In this document: positions 32,479 through 39,239 of the stretch, one piece after another
Numbering within the stretch: the first letter of the stretch is position 1
Layout of the letters: every line of letters starts with the position of its first letter
NCBI RefSeq assembly: GCF_030419005.1
Contig: NZ_CP106951.1
Span: 930,001-994,000, forward strand
DNA length: 64,000 bases
Direction of reading: 5' to 3'
Source: Eleftheria terrae
Lineage (GTDB): Bacteria > Pseudomonadota > Gammaproteobacteria > Burkholderiales > Burkholderiaceae_C
Notes under the pieces: generated by a model
Databases searched by the model: none
Seen by the model: only the letters and a program-made list of their open reading frames with translations
What the model was told of the DNA's origin: nothing
Translations under genes and position numbers: made by a program

Positions 32479-34101
32479 TCAGCCCAGGGGCGTGTCCGGT
32501 GCACCAGCCGGCCCCCCCTGCGATGGCAGCTGTGCGAGGATGGCAGCCAGCGCATCTGGTTCCACCGGTTTGGTCAGATGCTGGTCGAAGCCGGCCTCCG
32601 CCGCCAGCCGCTTGTCCTGCTGCTGGCCCCAACCGGTCAGCGCAACCAGGCACAGGCTGCGCCCCCAGTCCTGGCGGCGCAGGTGGCGCGCCACCTCGTA
32701 GCCATTGAGCTGCGGCAGGCCAATGTCCAGCAGCACCAGCTCGGGCGAGAAGCTGCGCACCATGCGTATGGCGTCGGCGCCGTCGTTGGCGGTGCAGACG
32801 TGGTGCCCCTGCAGCTCCAGCACCATGGCCAGGCTGCGGGCGGCGTCCTCGTTGTCGTCCACCACCAGCACCCGTCGGCGCGCCTCCGCCGCAAAGCGCG
32901 CAGCCTGCGCGCTTTGCGGCGGAGGACTCGCTTGCGGACTCAGTGGCAGGCGCACAAGAAACTCGCTGCCCCGACCTGGCCCCTCGCTCTCCGCATGGAT
33001 GGTGCCACCGTGCAGCTGGACCAGCCCGCGCACCAGCGCCAGGCCGATGCCCAGGCCTCCCTGCGAGCGCTCCAGCGCCGGCGCGAGCTGCGAGAACATC
33101 TCGAAGACGCTCGCCAGGTGCTGGCGCGGAATGCCGATGCCGGAGTCGCGCACGGACAGCACCACCTCGCCCCCCTCGCGCCAGACCCGCAAGCTGATGT
33201 GCCCGCCCGCTGGGGTGTACTTGGCAGCATTGGTCAGCAGGTTCAGGATGACCTGGGTCAGCCGCGTAGGATCCGCATCGAGCACGAGGGTCTCGTCGGG
33301 CATCTCCAGCTGCAGCTGATGCGAGGCCGCCTCGATCATCGGGCGGGCCGCCTCCACTGCGCCCTGCACCGCGGTCGCCAGCTCCACCGGCTGGCGACGC
33401 AGAGCCAGCTTGCCCTGAGTGATGCGTGACACCTCCAGCAGGTCGTCCACCAAGTGGGTCATATGCCGCAGCTGGCGCTCCAGCACGTCACGGCACCAGA
33501 GTAGCTGCGCGTCTGCGAGCTGCTTGCGGCGGAGGATCTCCAGCACGTTACGCATCGGCGCGAGCGGGTTGCGCAGCTCATGCGCCAAGGTGGCCAAGAA
33601 TTCGTCCTTGCGTCGGTCAGCCTGCGCCAGCACGTCGCGACTTTCCTGCAGTGCCTTCTCCGCCTCGCGATGCGCTGCCAGAGCCGATTCGGCATTCTTG
33701 CGGGCCTGCAACAGCTCGCGCTCGTACCGGTGCCGATCGTTCACCACCATCAGCGCCAGCTCGTGGCAGACCGTGCCGGCGTGCTCGCGACGAACCGCGT
33801 TCAGCAGCATCGGCACTGTGTGGCCATCTCGGTGCAGCAGGTCCAGCTTCACCTCGGCAACCGAGCCCTGCATCTGCAGCAGCGGTGCCCAGTGGGTCTG
33901 ATGGAAGACGCGGCCGCCCATGGTGAGCAGGTCTTGCACGCGCATGCCGCCCGACAGTTCGCTGGCGTGGTAACCGAGCCAGCGGCAGCAGGTTGCATTA
34001 GCGCGAAGGATGCGCCCGTCCGCCGCGCTCAGCAGCAGTCCACACGCCGCCTGCTCAAACAGTACCTCGGCCGCCGGCAGCCCGTCGTCCGCGTACTGCA
34101 T
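32479..34101 (-). CDS. PAS hybrid sensor histidine kinase paired with an RsbQ-like hydrolase
   Basis: 540 residues. An N-terminal PAS domain (about 8-135; LFEQAACGLLLSAADGRILRAN, and GRVFHQTHWAPLLQMQG as in RsbP/RsbU-type PAS sensors), a coiled coil (about 135-165), HisKA with His174 in LAHELRNPLAPMRNVLE, HATPase (FSQLAPALERSQGGLGIGLALVRGLV), and a receiver with Asp459 in LVLLDIGLPQL. Soluble. It starts 3 bases after the stop of the hydrolase gene, so both are translated from one transcript. The HATPase-receiver linker contains a 20-base perfect inverted repeat. In Bacillus the same PAS type sits on the RsbP phosphatase; here a kinase replaces it. Confidence 0.93.
   Translation of the reverse strand: MQYADDGLPAAEVLFEQAACGLLLSAADGRILRANATCCRWLGYHASELSGGMRVQDLLTMGGRVFHQTHWAPLLQMQGSVAEVKLDLLHRDGHTVPMLLNAVRREHAGTVCHELALMVVNDRHRYERELLQARKNAESALAAHREAEKALQESRDVLAQADRRKDEFLATLAHELRNPLAPMRNVLEILRRKQLADAQLLWCRDVLERQLRHMTHLVDDLLEVSRITQGKLALRRQPVELATAVQGAVEAARPMIEAASHQLQLEMPDETLVLDADPTRLTQVILNLLTNAAKYTPAGGHISLRVWREGGEVVLSVRDSGIGIPRQHLASVFEMFSQLAPALERSQGGLGIGLALVRGLVQLHGGTIHAESEGPGRGSEFLVRLPLSPQASPPPQSAQAARFAAEARRRVLVVDDNEDAARSLAMVLELQGHHVCTANDGADAIRMVRSFSPELVLLDIGLPQLNGYEVARHLRRQDWGRSLCLVALTGWGQQQDKRLAAEAGFDQHLTKPVEPDALAAILAQLPSQGGPAGAPDTPLG
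32883..32925. repeat. 20-base perfect inverted repeat inside the kinase linker
   Basis: The arms 32883-32902 and 32906-32925 are exact reverse complements with a 3-base loop (GCC). The repeat codes for part of the linker AQAARFAAEARRR between the HATPase and receiver domains. No T-tract follows on either strand. It may be an intragenic hairpin, a REP-like element absorbed into the frame, or a product of local duplication. Confidence 0.8.
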
Positions 34102-34104
34102 GCC

Positions 34105-34908
34105 TCAAATGCCCAGCCGTTGAAAGAACTCGCGCATGGCGACGGTGCTTGCGTCGGGCGCGCTCATGTGCGGACAATGGCCGACGTTGTCGATGATGTG
34201 GAGGGTGCTGTTCGGCATCGTCCGTTGCATGTACTCGCCTACCGCGCAGGGCGCGATCAGGTCATCGCTACACTGCAGGATGAGCGCCGGCACGCTGGAG
34301 CGCGCCAGGTCGGCACGGTGGTCCGACAGAAAGGTGACCCGCGCAAAATGCTTAGCGATCTCCGGATCGGTACGGCAGAAGCTGTTGGTAAGTTCGACCC
34401 CTAGCTCCGGTTGCTCTGGCGCGCCCATGATGGCCGGTGCCATGGTGCTCGACCAGCCCAGGTAGTTGCTCTCCAGCGTGTCCAACAGGCCCTCGATGTC
34501 CTGACGGGTAAAGCCACCGACATAGTCGCCGTCGTTGATGTAGCACGGCGACGGTCCCACCATCACCTGGGCGGCGAAGCGCTGTGGCGCCCGGATGGAG
34601 GCCAGCAGGCCGATCATCGCGCTGACCGAATGCCCGACGAAGACCACCGGCCCTTCGGCGAACTCCTCGACGATCTCCAGCACGTCGGCGGCATGGCCGT
34701 GCAGCGTGGAGTACTTCTCCCGGTCGTAGGCCTGCAGGTCGGAGGAGCCGCTGCCCACCAGGTCGAACAGCACGGTCCTGTAGCGGTCCTGGAAGGCGGG
34801 GGCCAAGTAGCGCCACATGTTCTGGTCGCAGCCGAAGCCATGGGCGAACACCATGGTCACAGCCCCCTGGCCGGCCACGTGCACATGGTTGCGTCGTGCT
34901 ACGCTCAT
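34105..34908 (-). CDS. RsbQ-like alpha/beta hydrolase
   Basis: 267 residues, close to B. subtilis RsbQ (269). The start ARRNHVHVAGQGAVTMVFAHGFGCDQNMWR is typical, and the catalytic triad is present: Ser94 in FVGHSVSAMIG, Asp216 in CSDDLIAPC and His244 in VGHCPHMS. In Bacillus RsbQ is needed for RsbP PAS-dependent energy-stress sensing, and its plant relatives D14/KAI2 are hormone receptors. Here it is followed directly by a PAS hybrid kinase, so a small ligand made or bound by the hydrolase is the probable signal; this is inference. Confidence 0.93.
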   Translation of the reverse strand: MSVARRNHVHVAGQGAVTMVFAHGFGCDQNMWRYLAPAFQDRYRTVLFDLVGSGSSDLQAYDREKYSTLHGHAADVLEIVEEFAEGPVVFVGHSVSAMIGLLASIRAPQRFAAQVMVGPSPCYINDGDYVGGFTRQDIEGLLDTLESNYLGWSSTMAPAIMGAPEQPELGVELTNSFCRTDPEIAKHFARVTFLSDHRADLARSSVPALILQCSDDLIAPCAVGEYMQRTMPNSTLHIIDNVGHCPHMSAPDASTVAMREFFQRLGI

Positions 34909-36299: not shown

Positions 36300-36327
36300 T
36301 TGACGGCCCCGCATGGCGGGCGATACT
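36300..36327 (+). promoter_or_regulatory. Putative sigma-70 promoter of the ComFB-like gene
   Basis: TTGACG, a 16-base spacer and GATACT. It is followed by a GAGGAG ribosome-binding site at 36340-36345 and the ATG at 36351. Confidence 0.55.
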
Positions 36328-36350
36328 GCGGGGGCAGTCGAGGAGTCCAG

Positions 36351-36641
36351 ATGAGCAGTGCCGACGATTTCGAATCGATCCGCAACTACTACGAGCGCCC
36401 GGTGATGGAAGCGGTGGCCGAGGCCAGCCCGCAATATCCCAATGTCGGCAGCGCCTTGCTGCCCGACGTGGTATGCGTGGCCCTCAACCGCCTGCCGCCG
36501 CGCTACATCCGCCATGAAGTGGATCTGGTCTTCTATCTGACCGAGCGCGAGCGCGCCGAGATGGAGACGGCCATGGCCGAGGCGGTGAGCTTCGCCTACG
36601 AGTTCGTGCAGGCCCGCGTCGCGATGCGGGCGCGGCGCTGA
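36351..36641 (+). CDS. Late competence protein ComFB family
   Basis: 96 residues from the ATG at 36351, with a strong ribosome-binding site 5 bases upstream. The pattern IRNYYERPVMEAV, LLPDVVCVALNRLPPRYIRHEVDLVFYL and ERAEMETAMAEAV is that of ComFB proteins. Family knowledge: named from Bacillus comF; in cyanobacteria, members bind cyclic dinucleotides and affect motility or competence. Its position between a diguanylate cyclase and a bacteriophytochrome supports a signalling role. No other competence gene is near. Confidence 0.9.
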   Translation: MSSADDFESIRNYYERPVMEAVAEASPQYPNVGSALLPDVVCVALNRLPPRYIRHEVDLVFYLTERERAEMETAMAEAVSFAYEFVQARVAMRARR

Positions 36642-36656: not shown

Positions 36657-38927
36657 TCAGGGCACCGCGCCGGGCCCGCTGGCCGGCAACGGCATGCCCA
36701 GCGGCAGGGTGAAGCTGAAGACGCTGCCCCGGCCAGGCTCGCTGCTGGCCCAGATCCGCCCGCCATGCGCTTCCACGATGCCGCGGGCAATGTAGAGGCC
36801 CAGCCCGCTTCCCTGCGCGGCGGTCTCCTCGTGCTGCCAGTGCAGCTCGAAGACATGCGGCAACTGGTCAGCGGCGATGCCCCGGCCCGTGTCCTTGACG
36901 TCGAACCGCACACTGGCGCCATGGCGGACGGCAGACACCCGCACCAGCCCGCCAGGCGGCGAGAACTTGATGGCGTTGCCGATCAGGTTGGTCAAGACGC
37001 GGAACAGGCATTCCGGGTCGGCATGCGCGACCAGGCCGGGCTCGGCCGAGCACGACAGCGCCTGGCCTTGCCCGGTGGCCATCGGCCGGTGCATCTGGCA
37101 GACGTCCTGCAGCAGCGGCCCCACGTCCACCGCCTGCGGACGCGCATCGAACTCGCCGCCCTCGAGCTTGCCGAAGTCGCGCAGATCGCCCAGCAGCACC
37201 TTCATGCGGTTGGCCGCGTACAGGATGCCGTCCAGGGCGGTGGCCACGGATTCGCTGGACAGCTGCGCCCCCTGCCTCACCACCCGCTGCACCAGGGTGG
37301 TGTTCATCAGGACCGCCGACACCGGGTTGACCAGGTCATGCGAGACGGCGGCGAGCGTGCGTTCACGCGCGGCCATCGCCGCAGCGGCCAGCCGCACCTG
37401 CCGCTCCAGGTCGTGCTCCACCGCGCAACGCCGCAGTTCGCTCGCGACCCAGACCTCGTCGTCGCGCCACGGCGCGCTATGGCCTCGCACCTGCTCCTTC
37501 CACAAGGCGAAGGAAGTGCGCGGGCGAAGGATGCCCTCGGGCGCCCCGCTGGCGGGCTGGGCGCTCTTGGACGGGTCGCCGGCCCAGTTCACGGTGCTGC
37601 CCACCTCCGGCCGGAACCACATCAGCGCGTTCGCCTCCGGCCGCGGCAGCGTGATCGCAAGCAATCCGCAGCAGCCGCCAGTGTCGTCGGCCGCGTCCGC
37701 CGCCGCCGGCCATGAGCCCTGCAGCCGCGTCAGCTGCAGCGGCTCCTCGCTGAAGGCGTCTGCATGCACCCACTGGCCCAGGCGCCGCAGGGTGTCCGCG
37801 CCCGGGCAGCGGCCGTACCGCACGACATGGCCGTCCACCAGCGCCGCCACCCCGTCGGCCGAGAGCAGTGACAGCAGGTCCTGCGGCCAGCGCATCATGG
37901 CCTGCCAGGCGTTCTCGTTGCACATGCGCATGCCGGCGCAAACGCCCGTGACCACCTCCGCCTTGGCGGCGCGGCGCTGGCGGTTTTCGACCGTCTCGCA
38001 GGCGCCGATCGACAGGGAGAGCATGCGGCCGACCGCCTCGCAAGCCAGCCGGTCTTCCACCGACAGCCGCCGCGGCGTGCGATGTCCGCAGGCGACCAGG
38101 CCCCACAAGCGTTCTTCCTGCAGCAGGGAGATGCTCATCGAAGCCCGCAGGCCCATGTTGCGCAGGTACTCGCGGTGCACCGGCGAGACACTGCGCAACA
38201 CCGAGTGGCTCAGGTCCACCGGCGCGCCGGTATCCGGCCGCAACGGCGGCTCGAGCGCCACCGGCTCGTAGCTGGCGTCGGGAATCACCCGGAGCCAGTT
38301 CATGCGGTACAGCTGGCGCGCCTGGCGCGGGATGTCCGACGCCGGATAGTGCAGGCCCAGGAAGGGTTCGATATCGTCGGCCTTGGCCTCGGCCACCACT
38401 TCGCCATGCTCGTCCGGGTGGAAGCGGTAGAGCATCACGCGATCGAAGCCGGTCATTTCCCTGAGGCCCGTCACCGCTGCCTGCTGCAACGCGGTCAGCG
38501 TCCTGGCCGTCCGCAGGCGCGCGAGCACCCGGTTCAGCAGGCCTGCGTCGAGGCGGTCGCCAGCCGGATCTTCGAGCTCGACGATGGCCAGCCCGTCCCA
38601 GCGATGCACCGTCGCATCGAAGGCCCGAGTGGCCACCTTGATCTTCGCGACACAGGTCTGCCCGGCAGGCAGGTCCATCAGCGCGGCGCGCACTGCGGCG
38701 GCGGCATCGGTGCCCAGCACGTCCTCCAGCGCGCGCCCAAGCAGCCCTGCGAGCGGCTGCCCGAGCAGCGGGCCGAGCGCGGCGCTGGCATGCCGCAGCA
38801 GCAGGTCCGGCTCGGAACACGCCAGCAAGTGCCCGTGCGGCTGTATGGCCCCCGGCACATGGATGGGCTCCGTCGCACAGCGCGCGAGATCGACGGGGGA
38901 CAGGCGACTGTCGAGGAAATCCGTCAT
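36657..38927 (-). CDS. Bacteriophytochrome histidine kinase
   Basis: 756 residues from the ATG at 38927, with AGGGAGG 9 bases upstream. Biliverdin-attachment Cys17 in ARCATEPIHVPGAIQPHGHLL, PAS-GAF with LHYPASDIPRQARQLY, PHY domain, then HisKA with His530 in VSHDLVNPVSAVL and HATPase (NAIKFSPPGGLV, GSGLGLYIARGI). It should sense red/far-red light through biliverdin. No receiver domain is fused, and neither a heme oxygenase nor a response regulator adjoins, so both must be elsewhere. Confidence 0.96.
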   Translation of the reverse strand: MTDFLDSRLSPVDLARCATEPIHVPGAIQPHGHLLACSEPDLLLRHASAALGPLLGQPLAGLLGRALEDVLGTDAAAAVRAALMDLPAGQTCVAKIKVATRAFDATVHRWDGLAIVELEDPAGDRLDAGLLNRVLARLRTARTLTALQQAAVTGLREMTGFDRVMLYRFHPDEHGEVVAEAKADDIEPFLGLHYPASDIPRQARQLYRMNWLRVIPDASYEPVALEPPLRPDTGAPVDLSHSVLRSVSPVHREYLRNMGLRASMSISLLQEERLWGLVACGHRTPRRLSVEDRLACEAVGRMLSLSIGACETVENRQRRAAKAEVVTGVCAGMRMCNENAWQAMMRWPQDLLSLLSADGVAALVDGHVVRYGRCPGADTLRRLGQWVHADAFSEEPLQLTRLQGSWPAAADAADDTGGCCGLLAITLPRPEANALMWFRPEVGSTVNWAGDPSKSAQPASGAPEGILRPRTSFALWKEQVRGHSAPWRDDEVWVASELRRCAVEHDLERQVRLAAAAMAARERTLAAVSHDLVNPVSAVLMNTTLVQRVVRQGAQLSSESVATALDGILYAANRMKVLLGDLRDFGKLEGGEFDARPQAVDVGPLLQDVCQMHRPMATGQGQALSCSAEPGLVAHADPECLFRVLTNLIGNAIKFSPPGGLVRVSAVRHGASVRFDVKDTGRGIAADQLPHVFELHWQHEETAAQGSGLGLYIARGIVEAHGGRIWASSEPGRGSVFSFTLPLGMPLPASGPGAVP

Positions 38928-39239
38928 GGCATCAGCCTCCCTGAAGCCGTCTGGCCATGGGCAGTTGCAGCCACCGCTGCCCATATCGGGCGAAGGACAT
39001 GGCCTCCGGCTCGCCTGGTCGCATCACTGTGCCTCCCTGGGTACCTCGCGGCACCTGCTTGAAGCCGGCGGTTGGAGCGGTCGTCGGGCAACGCCCACCG
39101 CCGGCAGCCTTCGCTCTGGATTACATGCAAGTGCAGGGGCGTTGACAACATCGCCCCTTCACGGAGGATGGCGAGCCCGGCGGCACGAGGCCCGACTGCC
39201 TTGATGAAGATGAAGGCCGGGCCCGGTTCGACGCGCCGA
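38928..39239. other. 312-base spacer between nadB and the bacteriophytochrome gene
   Basis: No gene is supportable. It holds the putative bacteriophytochrome promoter at 39120-39148 and a ribosome-binding site near 38937. No terminator with a T-run for nadB was seen. Confidence 0.5.
39120..39148 (-). promoter_or_regulatory. Putative sigma-70 promoter of the bacteriophytochrome gene
   Basis: On the minus strand: TTGTCA, a 17-base spacer and TGTAAT. The leader to the start codon at 38927 would be about 185 bases. Confidence 0.55.

Follow-up and report, generated by a model that had tools for sequence, protein, structure and literature searches.

An RsbQ-type hydrolase gene and a PAS hybrid histidine kinase gene of Eleftheria terrae belong to the RsbQ-PAS module family

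Introduction

The RsbQ-PAS module was defined by Nadezhdin, Brody and Price (2011; PMC3183031), whose text already includes Gram-negative proteins with histidine or hybrid kinase outputs. RsbP-type PAS domains are described there as lacking the DIT motif and as carrying nine marker residues (C10, L13, L48, Q53, F55, C56, Y59, E72 and P86); the C56 and Q53 positions were placed on the cleft side of helix F-alpha, and the F55A substitution in RsbP impaired its contact with RsbQ and put an end to signalling. Two models are offered in the same text: either the hydrolase makes a ligand for the PAS domain (Model 1), or the hydrolase is itself the receptor (Model 2). A later AlphaFold2 model places two RsbQ molecules between the PAS domains and linkers of two RsbP molecules (eLife 2025; PMC12143880), and perception of butenolides by RsbQ is mentioned, as Melville 2024, within PMC13192556. 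A literature search, with most subscription papers outside its reach, turned up no functional work on an RsbQ-PAS kinase from Gram-negative bacteria. Here we describe a gene pair at positions 32479 to 34908 of a 64,000-nucleotide stretch of the Eleftheria terrae genome (contig NZ_CP106951.1, positions 930,001 to 994,000; hereafter the window), which encodes an RsbQ-type alpha/beta hydrolase and a PAS hybrid histidine kinase and is, with good support, a member of this published family. In the reading that we consider probable, the hydrolase is predicted to dock on F-alpha of the PAS domain and would thereby set autophosphorylation of the hybrid kinase.

Results

Both genes lie on the minus strand, with the hydrolase gene (34105..34908; 267 amino acids) 5' of the kinase gene (32479..34101; 540 amino acids), and they share one reading frame: The stop codon of the first is separated from the ATG of the second by exactly 3 bases (34102..34104), such that the junction reads TGA GGC ATG. 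The original prediction, made from the letters of this stretch without database searches, had described these two open reading frames and their spacing, and both are present as described. The best structure match of the hydrolase is B. subtilis RsbQ (1wom, E 2.5e-93), followed by Olei00960 (3qvm) and only then by plant KAI2 and D14, so the plant receptors are not its nearest relatives. The same RsbQ structure is the top Foldseek match of a hydrolase-PAS model (50% identity, TMt 0.94), and the Pfam match is to Abhydrolase_6 (7e-25). Ser94 (codon 34627..34629), sitting in GHSVS, aligns with the serine of the RsbQ GHSVG motif, and Asp216 (34261..34263) and His244 (34177..34179) align with its aspartate and histidine; the catalytic triad that had been proposed is thus that of RsbQ, and the window hydrolase is an RsbQ homologue with its triad in place, as in the 2011 module. 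The three residues are kept in 112, 113 and 113, respectively, of 113 paired hydrolases, the window's included.

The Pfam domain order of the kinase is PAS (residues 13-119; 33745..34065; 2.5e-5), HisKA (165-230; 33412..33609), HATPase_c (277-388; 32938..33273) and a Response_reg receiver domain (411-522; 32536..32871), all on the minus strand like the genes themselves. The phospho-acceptors His174 and Asp459 and the N box from residue 287 are all intact, which supports the proposed output, a hybrid kinase of the phosphorelay type; no PPM or SpoIIE family appeared in the Pfam scan of this protein. Histidine or hybrid kinases are one of the output classes of the 2011 module, the others being PPM phosphatases and diguanylate cyclases. 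In an AlphaFold2 model of the kinase (42 rows; predicted local distance difference test, pLDDT, 89.6), F-alpha spans residues 61-78, and a single unbroken helix (residues 123-192; 33526..33735) is predicted to join the PAS domain to the HisKA helix, in keeping with the linker of the published module, which is helical and potentially a coiled coil; here the linker was assessed as a helix.

The window PAS domain has C20, L23, L59, R64, F66, H67, H70, E83 and P97 where RsbP has its nine markers in the order given above, a correspondence drawn from motif and spacing rather than from an alignment with the RsbP sequence. It is identical to RsbP at the C10, L13, L48, F55, E72 and P86 positions, and R, H and H at the Q53, C56 and Y59 positions fit the basic and aromatic classes of the 2011 figure legend, the text of which assigns no positions to these classes. 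The DIT motif is absent at the end of the domain, which has VVN instead, and D[ILVM]T was found within residues 100-150 in just 2 of 113 relatives. Three positions of the linker are conserved across output types: R123 occurs in 97 of 101 partners with a kinase output and in 8 of 12 with a cyclase output, E127 in 96 and 10, and L130 in 93 and 12, respectively. They form a common exit from the PAS domain that takes the place of DIT.

The original prediction had made conservation of the gene pair a test of its own claim. A search of 299 same-family genomes yielded 56 hydrolase matches at E 1e-40 or better in 43 genomes, from which the 55 regions outside the window were taken; the best 80 loci of a scan covering one genome per species, in which at least 581 of 596 candidate stretches encode a relative, served as a second source. 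Together with the window these gave 137 hydrolase places, 133 of them with distinct hydrolases. In 122 of the 137 places (118 of the 133 distinct hydrolases), an RsbP-type PAS gene starts no more than 1.5 kb downstream of the hydrolase gene and on its strand, and in 115 of these 122 the two genes are separated by -32 to +20 bases, with start codons picked by script. Because the same kind of PAS gene follows homologous hydrolases in so many places, chance adjacency is excluded, and the pair is conserved. Frames of 832, 839 and 915 amino acids (in G115, G245 and G028) had raised the suspicion of hydrolase-output fusions, but none was found, the upstream parts not being tested by homology: In the 832-residue (L080) and 915-residue (L054) frames the hydrolase ends at its own stop codon and the extra length lies upstream, and the G245 frame (L091) is just 293 amino acids long. 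In one locus (L120), two tandem RsbQ-type hydrolase genes stand ahead of a single PAS hybrid kinase. In some genomes the hydrolase gene (L088, L216, L219 and L220) is interrupted by one or two stop codons, which are signs of decay.

A further question was whether the PAS domain itself belongs with those that are linked to hydrolases. When its 125 residues were searched against the family genomes, 55 of 299 had matches at E 1e-6, and among the 19 matches of at least 49 bits, 17 have a hydrolase as neighbour, one (L183) has a hydrolase remnant and one (L253) has none within 8 kb. One best match each from 30 of these 55 genomes gave 30 PAS loci, of which 22 were linked to a hydrolase within 1.5-kb flanks (the remnant being counted) and eight were not. 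The F-alpha signature [RK]xFxx[TSA][HY]xxP, which in the window reads RVFHQTHWAP (residues 64-73; 33883..33912), was present in 19 of the 22 linked loci and in none of the eight unlinked ones. In E. terrae itself the two best PAS matches are both hydrolase-linked, and the third is far weaker (21.5 bits) and has no hydrolase match beside it. By match ranking and signature, rather than by a PAS tree, the domain therefore groups with hydrolase-linked PAS domains, the kinship on which the original prediction had also staked its case. More broadly, kinase residues 1-130 matched 2454 proteins at E 1e-10 or better, and HisKA and HATPase_c accompany the PAS domain in nearly all of the 120 matches listed, P0054 and P0064 being the exceptions seen.

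Several of these loci merit mention on their own account. The PAS protein of L183 (G052:C30) is of the RsbP type, has a GGDEF motif (by eye) and is preceded by only a C-terminal hydrolase remnant; it seems to have lost its hydrolase partner. The second RsbQ-PAS pair of the E. terrae genome (L038; G000:C4:505000-518000) has a hydrolase 46% identical to that in the window and a kinase of the order PAS-PAS-HisKA-HATPase with no receiver, and it follows genes for receiver, CheA-like and MCP-like (methyl-accepting chemotaxis protein-like) proteins. In addition, many of the matched kinases (P0009, P0011, P0024, P0035 and others) bear, from one source, the name 'sigma-B regulation protein RsbU (phosphoserine phosphatase)' despite their precomputed HisKA and HATPase domains; our guess is that the name was transferred through the PAS domain.

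To what the PAS domain is joined varies widely. Outputs were keyed in 121 loci by means of profiles derived from sequences that had been checked with Pfam; the key took no account of additional PAS domains, only one or two sequences underlie each of the Hpt, GAF and HisKA_2 profiles, and a PPM output, having no profile in the set, would appear only as a blank. HisKA-HATPase-REC (REC, receiver) accounted for 48 loci and HisKA-HATPase for 43, followed by GGDEF-EAL (9), GGDEF (4), histidine kinase (HK)-REC-Hpt (3), two each of HK-GAF, HK-REC-REC-Hpt and HK-REC-REC, and one each of HisKA_2 and GGDEF-EAL-GAF; the remaining six were blank, four being loci fetched twice and two being short. RsbP-type PAS domains were observed with a HisKA_2 kinase in L041 (by Pfam) and with a kinase bearing a C-terminal GAF domain in L066 (by Pfam) and L111 (by profile only).

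When four output classes were mapped onto a tree of 113 hydrolases (a quick method under LG+G4, with several long branches), 17 changes were needed, against a mean of 51.4 after shuffling; on the same tree, kinase versus cyclase required 6 changes and presence of a receiver 8. Across 100 kinase pairs, hydrolase distances correlated with PAS distances at r 0.87 and with kinase-core distances at 0.47, and the partial correlations were 0.83 for hydrolase and PAS with the kinase core held constant and 0.03 for hydrolase and kinase core with PAS held constant. These values suggest that hydrolase and PAS domain diverge together, with the proviso that the distances share ancestry and the comparison is not a formal test. 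A direct comparison shows more sharply that kinase cores are exchanged: Of the 30 rows with hydrolases closest to that of the window (70-76% identity; one locus occurring twice), 18 have a kinase core that is 59-76% identical to the window's and 12 have one with an identity of only 24-29%, and PAS identity stays at 47-70% throughout. L098 has the highest hydrolase identity (76%), yet its PAS domain is 54% and its kinase core only 27% identical. Hydrolase and PAS domain travel together in front of kinase cores that are replaced.

The pair is patchily distributed, and at the hutI site it is present or absent as a unit. Module copies occur in 6 of 9 genomes of the genus (E 1e-30) and, at E 1e-40, in 43 of 299 genomes of the family, 18 of 399 of the order and 3 of 369 of the class, the E. 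terrae genome being included in each case. In the window, hutI is convergent with the pair, and a diguanylate cyclase gene lies 84 bases upstream of the hydrolase gene on the same strand; divergent from the latter cyclase gene is a ComFB-domain gene (36300-36641, plus strand). ComFB is a receptor of cyclic di-GMP. In G1054, the nearest genome, whose HutI is 84% identical to that of the window (the highest among the six other genus genomes with a match), the cyclase gene (3393-2143) comes immediately after hutI (L238, 888-2090), then come the ComFB gene and nadB, and the hydrolase-kinase pair is absent. The closest hydrolase of that genome (73%) is encoded on another contig; its partner has a PAS domain of about 60% identity, a PAS-like stretch and then a kinase core of about 27% identity. 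In L239 and L241, the genes after hutI are those for ComFB and nadB, and both the pair and the cyclase gene are missing, so among the four hutI regions ComFB beside nadB is kept in three and the cyclase gene in L238 only.

The fourth of these regions, L240 of G1051, has an unrelated PAS-GAF kinase beside hutI. We considered this hybrid kinase as the resident kinase of the same site and rejected it: It runs in the same direction as hutI, whereas the window kinase is convergent with it, an RsbP-type signature is absent from its frame, and with an identity of 46% its core falls below the values of true partners. The guanine-plus-cytosine (GC) content of the hydrolase gene (0.65) and of the PAS region (0.68) is lower than that of the hut genes (0.71-0.76), which fits arrival of the pair from elsewhere, albeit weakly, given that the neighbouring ComFB gene has a value of 0.67 as well. 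Because hutI and the cyclase gene are tightly spaced in G1054 and the GC content of the pair is lower, insertion here would be favoured over loss there. The interval from the ComFB gene to nadB in L238 contains no counterpart of the bacteriophytochrome histidine kinase gene (36657-38984, minus strand), which therefore seems to be likewise patchy at this site.

Within 5 kb upstream and 8 kb downstream of the 133 distinct hydrolases, no neighbour family among the 46 largest occurred in more than 12 loci, leaving aside the hydrolases, the partner and kinase family, and two opposite-strand frame families (119 and 27 loci) that we take as antisense shadows. A small receiver gene stands beside the hydrolase gene in six loci of Ramlibacter or Comamonadaceae, on the same strand in four and on the opposite strand in two (L124, L144, L148, L136, L133 and L149); in five the partner is a kinase with no receiver of its own, and in L136 it is a short frame. 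Such a receiver is a candidate phosphate acceptor, but it is too local to be a general partner.

Discussion

Membership in the RsbQ-PAS family places the hydrolase and the kinase in one signalling unit, and we think it probable that the two are coupled by docking of the hydrolase on PAS F-alpha. A small molecule would enter the hydrolase pocket and react with, or bind near, Ser94; the PAS dimer would touch the hydrolase directly and so sense its resulting state; the predicted continuous helix from the PAS domain into the HisKA dimer could carry the switch; and the kinase would then load His174 and next Asp459, from which phosphate would pass to an Hpt protein or response regulator. A search of the E. 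terrae genome for an Hpt partner gave 10 matches, all in frames of at least 737 amino acids and none singled out. With moderate confidence we favour the hydrolase as receptor (Model 2 of PMC3183031) over delivery of a product into the PAS domain. The closeness of the hydrolase to RsbQ, the tie of the PAS signature to hydrolases, the co-divergence, the partner swaps, the kept triad and the effect of F55A in RsbP all speak for this reading. The outward-facing F-alpha positions F66 and H70 are strongly kept in the nearer pairs, whereas the cleft-side C56 position (H67 in the window) can be H, Y, L, W, Q or F, a pattern that leans towards F-alpha as a docking surface. A read-through model of hydrolase and PAS domain (112 rows, of which 23 are in-frame neighbours as one chain; pLDDT 95.2, predicted template-modelling score, pTM, 0.82) mildly favours a defined placement of the two domains, as judged from its scores.

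Several observations weigh against this reading or against so close a tie between the two genes. The pTM of the read-through model is only slightly higher than our guess for a pair of domains that each fold well but are loosely arranged. The strict F-alpha signature is missing from 3 of the 22 linked PAS loci, and of the 36 pairs that are more remote, only 16 have F at the F55 position and 26 have H or Y at the Y59 position. When just the 77 nearer pairs are considered, the partial correlations are less extreme, at 0.56 for hydrolase and PAS and 0.21 for hydrolase and kinase core. Moreover, 15 of the 137 hydrolase places have no RsbP-type PAS gene within 1.5 kb (L118, L119, L127, L137, L151, L164, L071, L039, L057, L054, L056, L059, L062, L063 and L061): Two of these hydrolases are remote (33-34% identity) and one (L063) is a fragment, but six share 64-71% identity with that of the window; in L118, a PAS open reading frame of the RsbP type lies about 3.5 kb further on. 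Finally, conservation of the triad would fit the making of a product and covalent reception equally well, and the cleft-side Q53 position (R64 in the window), being R or K in 109 of 113 PAS domains, fits ligand binding by the PAS domain as well.

These last two points are what recommend Model 1, in which the PAS pocket receives a product of the hydrolase, and the PAS domain senses either that product or what the product binds. The triad, kept in 112, 113 and 113 of 113 hydrolases, speaks for it, and catalytic residues are required in B. subtilis (PMC3183031); however, the other cleft-side position of F-alpha varies freely, and no widely common neighbour gene could supply a substrate, the next most frequent family occurring in at most 12 of 133 loci, and we regard this model as possible but doubtful. 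The neighbourhood bears similarly on the notion that the module senses energy stress, the role assumed for B. subtilis RsbQ-RsbP, with a general stress pathway as its target. Homology to RsbQ and to the RsbP PAS domain is all that speaks for it, but the outputs span kinases and cyclases and no neighbour gene family of any kind is widely common, and we hold it to be improbable; energy-stress sensing, which the original prediction mentioned for Bacillus, is called an unsupported assumption even for B. subtilis in PMC3183031, and nothing in our data shows it. That the hydrolase is a metabolic enzyme (of the enol-lactonase or esterase type) whose gene only happens to share a transcript with that of an unrelated kinase would suit the adjoining hut operon and a resemblance to the PcaD-type and BioH models of NCBIfam, which falls far under their cut-offs. 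It is very hard to square, though, with the identity to RsbQ, the hydrolase-tied PAS signature, the co-divergence and the presence or absence of the pair as a unit, and hut genes are no recurrent neighbour among the 46 largest families; we give this explanation almost no weight.

Docking of the hydrolase on the PAS domain leaves room for a bolder and rather unlikely extension, that hydrolase and PAS domain together form a free-moving, output-independent cassette whose hydrolase is a KAI2-like covalent receptor for a butenolide-type molecule. Were it true, soil- and plant-associated bacteria could plug the cassette in before any kinase or cyclase, and one signal could elicit different responses because the genes move and the domains are exchanged. 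The natural ligand of RsbQ and of plant KAI2 is a long-open question. Similar hydrolase-PAS units joined to unrelated kinases, together with sites free of the pair, offer clean comparisons for the signal and for the choice between receptor and enzyme, and a kinase readout should be easier in vitro than a sigma-B cascade.

The original prediction presented the locus as a Gram-negative version of RsbQ-RsbP with a kinase output: The kind is real, but it is not new, having been published in 2011 (PMC3183031). Like the module defined there, the window pair has an RsbQ homologue directly upstream, an RsbP-type PAS domain that is N-terminal-most, the marker residues, no DIT motif, a helical linker, and the histidine or hybrid kinase output described for Gram-negatives. 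Only 3 of the 45 proteins in the 2011 set are kinases with a C-terminal receiver, against 48 of 121 loci with HisKA-HATPase-REC here, and the HisKA_2, C-terminal GAF and REC-Hpt outputs that we observed are not known to be among the layouts given in the 2011 text. What is added here is a larger census, further output layouts, natural kinase swaps, a signature contrast and pair-free sites. The window pair resembles B. subtilis RsbQ-RsbP in its hydrolase (about 50% identical) and its RsbP-type PAS domain, but its output is a hybrid kinase instead of a PPM phosphatase, and no sigma-B partner is implied. The plant butenolide receptors KAI2 and D14 share the fold and the triad, although they are more distant from the window hydrolase than RsbQ is (KAI2 is about 37% identical), and they act through F-box proteins and not through a PAS kinase. 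Vibrio LuxP-LuxQ is periplasmic, and its binding-protein fold differs from that of an RsbQ-type hydrolase. As an analogy drawn in PMC3183031, it nevertheless shares with the window pair the arrangement in which a separate binding protein is read by the PAS domains of a hybrid kinase.

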